From positions 5,839,257 through 5,903,256 of the forward strand of contig NZ_CP042913.1 of assembly GCF_008065115.1 (NCBI RefSeq): DNA of 64,000 bases. Direction: 5' to 3'. Shown piece after piece: positions 26,571-30,475 of this stretch. Each line of letters starts with the position of its first letter. Positions within the stretch are counted from its first letter, which is position 1. The notes below the pieces were generated by a model. The model was not told the origin of the DNA. It did not search any database and saw only the letters and a program-made list of their open reading frames with translations. The stretch comes from Bythopirellula goksoeyrii (lineage in GTDB: Bacteria > Planctomycetota > Planctomycetia > Pirellulales > Lacipirellulaceae). A program made the translations under genes and the position numbers.

Positions 26571-27088
26571 GAATCGCCTCCCTGCGATCGCAGACTCAAG
26601 CACGGTAGGCATGTTTCAATTCGCACGGTTCCATTGGGGGGGAACGGGAATTGTCGCTAAGGCTTCCGGCGAGAGCCTGATGGGGTTTTGGGGAGCCCCG
26701 TCGAGGTTGGTGGTCACTTCCGACCGGTGACGGGACTGTTGGGGGTGGGGATGACTCACATCTGAGATTGGATTCTGGGTCCTCAACAAGAGAGAGTCGT
26801 CCTGCAATTGGTTTCGGCCAGTTCGGGTCCTAACGATGAGAATTTGTTTTCCGCAGGTAGGGGCAAATCCTAGGATTCGTAAATTGAGGGGTTACCTGCC
26901 CTGGGTTGAGGACCAAAATATCGCTATAATCCCCAGAACCCGCAGAGTTTAACGCAAACCTTAGCCGGAGACACACCTGCCTCCGAGGTTCCCGGACCAA
27001 AGTGTTGGTCGGGCTACAGTTTTCCAGTCTTGGGACTTTGCGAACTTAAGATTGAAAGTTCTTAGAGACATTCGAGGGAGAGGGCGGT
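26571..27088 (+). other. Non-coding leader of the topoisomerase VI operon
   Basis: About 520 bases with no convincing gene. Near the end, TATAAT at 26925-26930 is a candidate -10 with no clear -35. TTAGCCGGAG at 26961 also occurs at 31170. Otherwise nothing recognisable. Confidence 0.5.
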
Positions 27089-29224
27089 TTGGCAACGGCA
27101 AAGAAGAAAACAGCAAAGAAAAAAGTACGAGCGGCAAAACCAGCGACTCGTTCGGTAAAGAAAAAAAAGGTGAAGAAAAAGGTCCGCAAGAAGGTTGCGG
27201 CTCCTGCTTCTGAGCAATCCCTCGCTGAGTCCAATGGCGTTGCCTCCCCCAAGCGACGCACCACCGCCAAAGCGATGGCCGCCACTCAGCGGGATATCTC
27301 CGTCAGCGAGTTCTTCGCTAAGAACCGCCATTTGCTCGGTTTCGACAACCCTCGCAAAGCACTGCTTACTACGGTAAAGGAAGCGGTCGACAACTCGATC
27401 GACGCCTGCGAAGAGGCAGGCATCCTCCCAGAAATCTGGGTCCATATCCAGCAGACCTCAGCCGACCACTACAAGGTCGGAATTCAGGACAACGGCCCTG
27501 GCATCTTGAAGAAGCAAATCCCATTGATCTTCGGCAAACTTCTCTACGGCTCTAAGTTCCATCGACTTCGTCAAAGCCGTGGCCAACAGGGAATCGGCAT
27601 CAGCGCCGCCGGCATGTATGGCGTACAAACTACCGGCAAGCCGGTGAAGATCATCTCGAAAGTGGGAGCAAGAAAATCGGCTCACTACTATGAGATCCAA
27701 ATCGACACCAAGAAAAACGAGCCCCGCATTCTCAACGGCAAAGGCGAGGGAGTTGACATTCCTCCTGGCGACAAAGGGAAAGAGTATATCGAAAAGCATG
27801 GCATCGAGTGGGTCGAGCAGCCTCACGGCACGCGGGTAACTATCGAGCTGGAAGCCAAGTTCGTCCGAGGCCGTGGGAGCGTCGGCGAATACTTGGAGCA
27901 GACCGCCATCGCGAATCCGCATATTACGCTCAATTACGAAGACCCTGACGATTTTGTCTACACCTACGAGCGCTCCACCAAGACGCTTCCTCCCGAGCCA
28001 AAAGAAATCAAACCCCATCCCTATGGTGTGGAAATGGGCCGACTCGCTACGATGCTTGAAGAGGCACAAGGTTCGACCCTTTCGGAGTTTCTCACCTCGC
28101 GTTTCTCCCGCGTAAGTTCGCCGATAGCTCGTCGCATCTGTCAGTCCGCTGGAGTTGGTACGCGGACGAACACTCGCAAAGTAGGCCGCAAGGAAGCAGA
28201 GTTGCTTTTTCATGCGATCCAGAAAACGAAGATCGCTGCACCTGCGACGGATTGCATATGCCCGATTGGTGAAGATCTCATCCTCAAGGGAATGCACAAA
28301 GTTGTGCCAGGTGAATTCTACGCCGCGGCGACTCGCCCTCCTTCGGTTTATCGGGGGAATCCCTTTCAGATTGAAGTGGGCCTCACCTACGGTGGCACCG
28401 CACCTACGCAAAACATCACCAAGGATCTATTGTTGGACTTGCTCGAAGAAACTGATGCTCGCACGGTGAGGCAATTCCTTGTCCATACTTTCAATGGACT
28501 TGGTGGCGAGGGGGCCGACAAGATTATTAAAACGGCCAGCCTAGGCACGCGCCAAACTCCAGGCAAGCTCAAGCCCAAGGAAATCGAAGCCCTTTTCACG
28601 GCGATGAAAAACGTCAACATCGCCGAGGGCCAATCGATGGAGGTACTCCGATACGCCAATCGTGTGCCGTTGCAGTTCCAGCAATCAGCCTGTGCCATTA
28701 CGCAGACCATTTTGAACACGAATTGGCGGAGCTACGGGCTGAGCCAATCCCGCGGCGGTTTGCCCAAAGGCCCCGTGAGCCTGATGGTCCACATCGCCAG
28801 CGTGTGGGTCCCCTTCACGAGCGAATCCAAGGAGGCGATTGCCAATTACCCGGAGATTCAAAAGGAAATCCGCCTCGGCCTGCAAGCTGTCGGTCGCAAA
28901 CTGGGCATGTTCCTACGCCGTCGTCTACGGGTGAAACAGCAATCCGATCGTCGCGAGATATTTCTCCGCTATCTGAAGGAAGTTTCCAACGCAGTGAGTG
29001 AAATCAATGGCGTTAAACAACCCGAGCTTTACGAGCAACTAGTAAATGTTGCGAAGCGGCGCACAGCCGACGCCGACATGAAACTCGACGAACGTGGCAA
29101 GAAAATCCAGGAAGACCCGACCCAGTTGGACCTCGGCGAGAACGTTTTGATTGTCGACCCCACCCAGCACGAAGCCGCCATCAACCGCGTTGAAACTGTC
29201 GAAGAAGAACCTGAACAAGATTAA
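27089..29224 (+). CDS. top6B: DNA topoisomerase VI subunit B with lysine-rich N-terminal tail
   Basis: A 711-residue ATPase subunit of the type IIB topoisomerase, which transports one duplex through another. The GHKL ATP site is [14 protein letters not shown] (Asn102), [10 protein letters not shown] and [14 protein letters not shown]; a helix-two-turn-helix segment and the transducer domain ([16 protein letters not shown] through [11 protein letters not shown]) follow. The first 65 residues are extraordinary for this subunit: repeated lysine-alanine stretches ([32 protein letters not shown]), like the bacterial histone-H1/HC1 tails. The start is TTG at 27089 after GGAGAGGGCGG. Topoisomerase VI is archaeal and plant by origin, rare in bacteria. 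Subunit A follows. Confidence 0.92.
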
Positions 29225-29314: not shown

Positions 29315-30475
29315 ATGGCCAAGAAACGCCCCCTCAAAAAGAAACCTGCCACGCCTCACGCTGGAGTGAAGCTTACTCCGCGCGACAAGAAAACGATCTC
29401 CAACCTCACGGGATTGGCCGACCGCGTCGTGAGTGCGGCCAAAACGCGCAAGGACCCGTACGTCGATATTCCTTCGCGCACCCTGTCGAATGTCCGTTTC
29501 AGCCCTCGTAAGGGGATCCTGGAAATGGGCAACAGCAAGAATCGTCGCCAGTTGTTCGACCTCTCCCAAGCAAAAGCCTACATGCGCACGATGCTCGTAG
29601 CCAGCGGTTGCAAGAGACTCATCGATCAGGGTAAATCGACAAGCCTTCGAGGTCTTTTCTACATGCTCAAACACACCATCGAAGGAGCGAAAGAGAATAC
29701 TTTTGATGTGCAAAACGAGTGCGATACAATCATTGAAGATGTCGAAGTACTCTTGAATTCCATCCGGGAGGAACTGCATCTCTACGCTGAAAATCGCGGG
29801 GCCATGGTCGGTAATATTGTAATCACGGACAAGGGCGACACAATCGACTGCGCTCGCATGGGTTCAGGCGGCTACGCGATCCCCTCAATCGTCGAACCCG
29901 AAGTGATCGAACTCGATCCCAAGAAGTGCGGTGCCAAGTTTATCCTCCATGTTGAAAAAGGCACTGTCTGGCAGCGGTTTAACGAGGACAAATTCTGGCA
30001 AAAGCACAATTGCATTCTCACCCACGGTAGCGGCCAACCCCCCCGCGGCGTGCGTCGTATGTTGCACCGTTTGCACAATGAGTTGAAACTCCCCATCTAT
30101 TGCGTGCTCGACAACGACCCCTGGGGCTATTACATCTACAGTGTCATCAAGCAAGGTTCCATCAACCTGGCCTTTGAGTCGCAGCGGATGGCCATTCCCG
30201 CGGCCAAATACCTGGGTTTGCGCAGCATCGATCTCGAGCGCTGCCAACTCTCCGATAGCGTCAAAATTTCGCTCAATGAAACCGATCGCAAGCGAGCCAA
30301 ACAGATCGCCAAGTACCCCTGGTTTGAGAAAAAGCGCCGCTGGCAGTCAGAAATTCAGCGCATGCTCAAGAACGATTTCAAACTCGAAGTCGAATCGCTC
30401 ATCTCCAAAGACATTAGCTACGTTACTGAGGTCTATGTCCCAGAGAGGCTCGCAGAACAGGATTGGCTGGATTAA
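29315..30475 (+). CDS. top6A: DNA topoisomerase VI subunit A (Spo11-like)
   Basis: A 386-residue DNA-cleaving subunit homologous to Spo11. The catalytic tyrosine is Tyr116 in SLRGLFYMLKHTI, within the winged-helix (CAP-like) domain. The Toprim domain supplies Glu214 in LHVEKGTVW and the D266-N-D268 pair in VLDNDPWGYYIYS. An N-terminal basic stretch (MAKKRPLKKKPATPH) echoes the tail of subunit B. The intergenic gap of about 90 bases contains an inverted TAGCCGG/CCGGCTA pair. With both subunits and every catalytic residue present the enzyme should be active. Confidence 0.93.
   Translation: MAKKRPLKKKPATPHAGVKLTPRDKKTISNLTGLADRVVSAAKTRKDPYVDIPSRTLSNVRFSPRKGILEMGNSKNRRQLFDLSQAKAYMRTMLVASGCKRLIDQGKSTSLRGLFYMLKHTIEGAKENTFDVQNECDTIIEDVEVLLNSIREELHLYAENRGAMVGNIVITDKGDTIDCARMGSGGYAIPSIVEPEVIELDPKKCGAKFILHVEKGTVWQRFNEDKFWQKHNCILTHGSGQPPRGVRRMLHRLHNELKLPIYCVLDNDPWGYYIYSVIKQGSINLAFESQRMAIPAAKYLGLRSIDLERCQLSDSVKISLNETDRKRAKQIAKYPWFEKKRRWQSEIQRMLKNDFKLEVESLISKDISYVTEVYVPERLAEQDWLD

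Follow-up and report, generated by a model that had tools for sequence, protein, structure and literature searches.

Topoisomerase VI (Topo VI) is a type IIB topoisomerase that acts as a preferential decatenase (PMC8837201). The solved archaeal enzymes of M. mazei (2Q2E/9O0G) and S. shibatae (2ZBK) share the GHKL ATPase, the first H2TH domain, the transducer and the catalytic residues with the bacterial enzyme described here, but their B subunits (TopVI-B) have neither a tail nor an insertion in the transducer, and start about 5-9 residues from the conserved core. On closure of the ATP gate, the subunits exchange their N-terminal straps (PMC13040014). The M. mazei enzyme is distributive, and the authors of that study suggest that a factor raising its processivity may be missing (PMC5922973). 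In another class of topoisomerase, the type IA enzyme TopA of actinobacteria (Streptomyces, Mycobacterium), H1-like Lys/Ala repeats at the C-terminus have been shown to stabilise the complex with DNA and to confer greater processivity (PMC7398561). According to the relevant passages of PMC11302465, bacteria that have topo VI but do not belong to Pseudomonadota or Terrabacteria are without topo IV. In the same publication, Allen and Maxwell 2024 describe, in the passage on the TopVI-B model of Pirellula staleyi, a unique alpha-helical bundle that is located at the transducer and extends into the central cavity. Pirellula staleyi belongs to the Pirellulales, the order of the organism analysed here.

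The DNA analysed here is a window of 64,000 nucleotides that forms part of a single 6.47 Mb contig of Bythopirellula goksoeyrii. The TopVI-B gene (27089..29224, + strand) begins with TTG and encodes 711 amino acids comprising a GHKL ATPase, a canonical H2TH domain (H2TH1; residues 314-385; 28028..28243, + strand) and a transducer with a predicted second H2TH domain (H2TH2) inserted in it. The product matches PF09239 (180.7 bits), PF02518 (43.6 bits) and NF003218 (687 bits) above their curated cut-offs as well as TIGR01052 (NCBIfam), and carries both the GHKL and the Topo-VIb transducer domains by which subunit B of Topo VI is recognised. It is about 40% identical to its M. mazei counterpart, and the closest named relative found, the TopVI-B of B. 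polymerisocia Pla144, is 96% identical in the core. TopVI-B is encoded in all 43 Lacipirellulaceae genomes searched. The adjoining gene encodes the partner subunit, TopVI-A (29315..30475, + strand; 386 amino acids), with the N-terminus MAKKRPLKKKP. An initial annotation, made from the sequence of the window, had stated that the catalytic residues of both subunits are intact, which comparison with M. mazei bears out. E98 of TopVI-B aligns with the general-base Glu of M. mazei (E44), the KGRR-type loop is found as KFVRGRGS at 257 with R260 and R262 conserved, and the WKxY motif is found as NWRSYG at 545 with Arg in place of Lys. In TopVI-A, the active-site Tyr and the TOPRIM acids are present, and comparison of motifs identifies R112, Y116, E214, D266 and D268 with M. 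mazei R102, Y106, E202, D254 and D256.

The N-terminal tail of TopVI-B (residues 1-62; 27089..27274, + strand) contains 18 K, 5 R, 13 A and 2 E with no D, or 23 basic against 2 acidic residues, giving a net charge of +21, in keeping with the Lys/Ala-rich, H1-like tail that the initial annotation had reported and had described as missing from archaeal TopVI-B, as the solved structures confirm. It holds the most basic 35-residue stretch (+19) among the 45 ORFs of the window, where the runner-up reaches +9; the basic start of TopVI-A, MAKKRPLKKKPATPHAG (29315-29370), is also at +9 in 35 residues, and was rightly described as milder. MAKK-type starts of TopVI-A are found in the majority of the few relatives that can be read, the anchor pattern being narrow. 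AlphaFold gives the tail a pLDDT of about 36-48, consistent with disorder, and the tail is accordingly described here as predicted to be disordered and as H1-like in composition. A short basic cluster, RRTTAKA-M (27254..27277, + strand), joins it to the core; the consensus of the order is RRRATAxS-M, with R57 invariant and R56 nearly so. Residues 1-62 match no Pfam family. Bacterial Hc1 proteins are similarly rich in Lys and Ala, but no match to Hc1 (PF07432) is found in the genome at E<=1, and membership of the tail in the Hc1/H1 family was rejected for lack of a model match; the likeness is one of composition. When the genome was searched for tail-like paralogues, the tail itself was the only match, and the same search missed a tail on TopA that is described below; thus, further tail-like proteins are not excluded by such low-complexity searches.

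The TTG codon is preceded at 8 nt by a Shine-Dalgarno element, GGAG (27077..27080, + strand), and both the element and its spacing are the same in most relatives. Most TopVI-B genes of Pirellulales retain this rare start codon, which may hold expression low. The initial annotation had named an upstream-start artefact as the finding that would undo the tail, namely true initiation at an internal Met, Met63, with no tail produced. Such a start could appeal to the weakness of TTG and to the nearly invariant ATG at Met63, but this ATG has no Shine-Dalgarno element in the window, and most relatives have no suitably spaced one there. TTG with GGAG at 8 nt is found at 75-77 of the 92 chosen TopVI-B starts in Pirellulales, a count that is not independent since the Shine-Dalgarno element was itself among the selection criteria; an unselected list of relatives' TopVI-B starts has the same regularity. 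Furthermore, comparison of codons 1-35 with B. polymerisocia shows 16 synonymous substitutions and a single non-synonymous one (dN 0.013, dS 1.57; dN/dS near 0.01). The tail is thus constrained to the same degree as the core (dN 0.028, dS 1.90), whereas the 60 bases that precede the TTG have no conservation in the same comparison. The pattern of substitutions indicates purifying selection on codons 1-35, and the TTG start is judged real and the tail made; an artefact of initiation at Met63 is excluded on these comparisons, its probability being very small.

Beyond this gene, H1-like tails are found in distant planctomycete lineages (L116, L126, L133, L134, L140-L145), as in the RKKPAT repeats of L134 and the tail SAKKKSAKKSTKK of L140; these loci outside Pirellulales are the best-scoring ones and constitute a non-random sample. 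Among 92 distinct Pirellulales-type sequences, the net charge of the tail ranges from -4 to +26. Some tails have only about 12-14 residues, such as those of L025 and L030, whose net charge is +3 to +4, and many Pirellulales with the same enzyme have a tail that is acidic or nearly absent. The constant part of the tail in the order is the short cluster with the consensus RRRATAxS. A basic tail, defined as a net charge of at least +10 with at least 22% K+R, is present in 42 of 132 sequences, and at least 19 changes of state are needed on their tree, which is a quick tree with some long branches and perhaps a few mis-chosen starts. In the comparison among orthologues that the initial annotation had proposed, H1-like tails thus recur in the phylum, but in Pirellulales their charge is so variable that a basic tail, as read from these sequences, is no fixed trait of the order. 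This variability implies that the tail is not needed for the core reaction everywhere.

A single GyrA-type protein, which has a GyrA box, and a single GyrB-type protein are encoded in the genome; a second copy of GyrA or GyrB was not found in it, nor was topo IV. The check for gyrase and topo IV suggested in the initial annotation thus gives one gyrase and no topo IV, which agrees with the pattern for topo VI bearers in the passages of PMC11302465 cited above. With gyrase as the only other type II enzyme, Topo VI is likely to be the decatenase, and we infer that TopVI-A/B is most likely the chromosome decatenase of this genome. The genome's own TopA (L161, G000:C1:2696500-2700200) has an H1-like Lys/Ala tail at its C-terminus, about 48 residues long. 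TopA proteins from 30 other Lacipirellulaceae genomes (L162-L191) have similar H1-like ends, the net charge of their last 70 residues being +9 to +28. No such tail is present at either end of GyrA, or at the N-terminus of GyrB, the end that was read. The tail charges of TopA and TopVI-B are correlated among 19 genomes of the family (rho 0.57, p 0.011), a value uncorrected for kinship and including one TopVI-B start, L029, that is probably mis-chosen. The N-terminus of TopVI-B and the C-terminus of the genome's own TopA therefore carry Lys/Ala-rich repeats like those of actinobacterial TopA. The tail of TopVI-B differs from the actinobacterial repeats in that it is N-terminal, lies beside the strap of the ATP gate and belongs to a type IIB enzyme, and in that it is known from sequence whereas the effect of the actinobacterial repeats on DNA binding and processivity has been demonstrated. 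The variation of the tail within the order, the TopA tail and the second H2TH domain are points that the initial annotation did not contain.

That relatives differ so widely in the length and charge of the tail is what a nearly neutral, composition-driven disordered extension would produce, with the RRRATAxS cluster by the strap as the only part that matters. Consistent with such drift, tail charge within Pirellulales falls as the GC content of the locus rises (rho -0.50), so that base composition accounts for part of the variation, and R57 and its neighbours are the only constant residues of the tail. In the close pair, however, the Lys part is under constraint as strong as that on the core, with 1 non-synonymous change among 17 differences, Lys-rich tails recur in distant lineages and the same kind of tail is found on TopA, all of which make a neutral extension unlikely. 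The initial annotation had further connected the tail with condensed nucleoids. This link is unsupported because the tail is acidic or nearly lost in many Pirellulales, no Hc1 is found in the genome and a TopVI match is absent from all 19 listed genomes of the same class outside Pirellulales in a phylum-wide sample. A general role in tethering to DNA, in parallel with the lysine tail of TopA, is plausible and would fit better than condensed chromatin.

We therefore favour, at a probability of about 0.55, the reading that the TopVI-B tail acts as a non-specific electrostatic tether to DNA and raises the processivity of the Topo VI decatenase. The polycationic, disordered tail would sit just before the N-terminal strap, and since the strap is swapped at the ATP gate, a tail ahead of it would emerge at the gate. 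From there it could hold the enzyme close to DNA each time a strand has been passed, and an enzyme that is distributive in archaea would become more processive, as TopA does in actinobacteria by virtue of its lysine repeats. The tether in cis is proposed on the combined grounds of the TopA tail, the actinobacterial lysine repeats, the distributivity of the M. mazei enzyme and the position of the strap, and it is on these that we infer DNA binding and processivity of the tailed Topo VI.

The tail might instead be mainly a docking platform, whether for the sliding clamp, for another partner or for lysine acetylation, with contact to DNA secondary. The pattern Qxx[LM]F or QxxLPF, which resembles the motifs by which bacterial proteins bind the sliding clamp (for example QADMF in the replicative polymerase), occurs in 9 of 38 TopVI-B tails of planctomycetes outside the order (L128, L129, L135, L139, L140-L142, L144, L145), compared with 0.02 expected in shuffled tails. 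Examples include QADLF in L140, QTTLF in L128, QRSLF in L139 and QGGLF in L142, as well as QANLPF. Since the pattern was chosen after the sequences had been seen and the nine tails represent about three lineages, the clamp-like motif is only a lead, suggesting that the tails may be tethering platforms whose target differs by lineage. Acetylation of the lysine repeats is suspected for Streptomyces TopA (PMC7398561). On the other hand, the clamp-like pattern is found in none of the 94 Pirellulales-type tails, including that of the window, and these tails have no conserved short motif, the mean frequency of the top residue being 0.35. For the enzyme of the window, a role mainly in docking is rated as improbable, somewhat more so than a neutral extension, and the electrostatic tether is retained.

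The second departure from the archaeal enzymes lies in the transducer, where residues 441-511 interrupt the alignment with archaeal TopVI-B as an insertion of ~70 residues. Profile comparison and structure prediction identify this insertion as a second H2TH domain (H2TH2; residues 445-514; 28421..28630, + strand), located between the strands at 424-434 and 518-523. With hhalign, the profile of the insertion matches H2TH1 of the same protein over 71 columns (32% identity, probability 98.6, E 9e-16), whereas seven control windows elsewhere in TopVI-B give probabilities <1; the archaeal H2TH domains of M. mazei and S. shibatae are matched with probabilities of 96.5 and 97.3. Used as a single query sequence, the insertion likewise retrieves, from many genomes, the H2TH1 domains of those same proteins, with E values as low as 5e-9. 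As in the four-helix H2TH fold, the four predicted helices of H2TH2 (445-454, 460-467, 473-483 and 496-508) pair one by one with those of H2TH1 (316-325, 331-338, 344-354 and 367-379), in the same order and with matching lengths. When H2TH2 is folded alone, its best match in the PDB is M. mazei Top6B 233-313 (Z 12.7 over 78 residues), followed by other H2TH proteins, MutM (Z 8.3) and S13; a Z near 13 can occur by chance in helical bundles, and the sequence evidence for H2TH2 is independent of it. The helical bundle of the P. staleyi model is located at the transducer, as here, and the passage of PMC11302465 describing it does not recognise it as another H2TH domain; lysine tails, according to a term search, are not mentioned in that publication.

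H2TH2 is present in all 92 orthologues on direct reading, including L088 and L104, and a search of the order gives a match in 135 of 147 genomes (2 of them weak) and none in 12. In a tree of this short domain, the H2TH2 sequences cluster together, separately from H2TH1. At the corresponding site, the TopVI-B of other planctomycetes has either a loop of 19-20 residues or unrelated low-complexity inserts. A charged low-complexity insertion occurs at the same position of the transducer in one other planctomycete family (L146-L148); these stretches were rejected as H2TH candidates, not being H2TH-like by eye, and their presence implies that the transducer loop tolerates insertions repeatedly. At the positions of the M. 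mazei DNA contacts R263, K268 and K308, H2TH2 has I/V465, an invariant G470 and N510, while H2TH1 keeps K/R at 2 of the 3, and the mean net charge is -0.3 for H2TH2 versus +5.5 for H2TH1. Because the three contact residues and the charge are lost, H2TH2 is not called a DNA clamp of the known type. It does retain three invariant arginines, R458, R461 and R488, and in 98% of the sequences K/R478. A role as a gate, as a spacer or in sensing the T-segment is possible.

A broader and more tentative reading, which we consider possible though doubtful, is that the Pirellulales Topo VI has been re-engineered: H2TH2, acquired once in the ancestor of the order and devoid of the usual DNA-contact residues, would reach from the transducer into the T-segment cavity and act as a new gate or as a T-segment sensor, and lineage-specific disordered tails, H1-like and in some lineages with a clamp-binding motif, would anchor the enzyme on DNA or the replisome, supplying the processivity that archaeal Topo VI lacks. 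On the sequence comparisons, what is new is the duplication of a domain, H2TH2, in the TopVI-B of Pirellulales, while the lysine tail is a known add-on in a new class of topoisomerase. Naming the published helical bundle as H2TH2 accounts for a structural peculiarity of this bacterial order, and it provides a defined piece for deletion or mutation in studies of T-segment capture. As for the tail, archaeal Topo VI looks too slow and too distributive for its cellular job, and the question whether it lacks a processivity factor has been raised (PMC5922973). With an H1-like tail built into its Topo VI and no topo IV found in its genome, this bacterium provides a natural test in cis of such a factor, for which the short-tailed enzymes of L025 and L030 can serve as controls.
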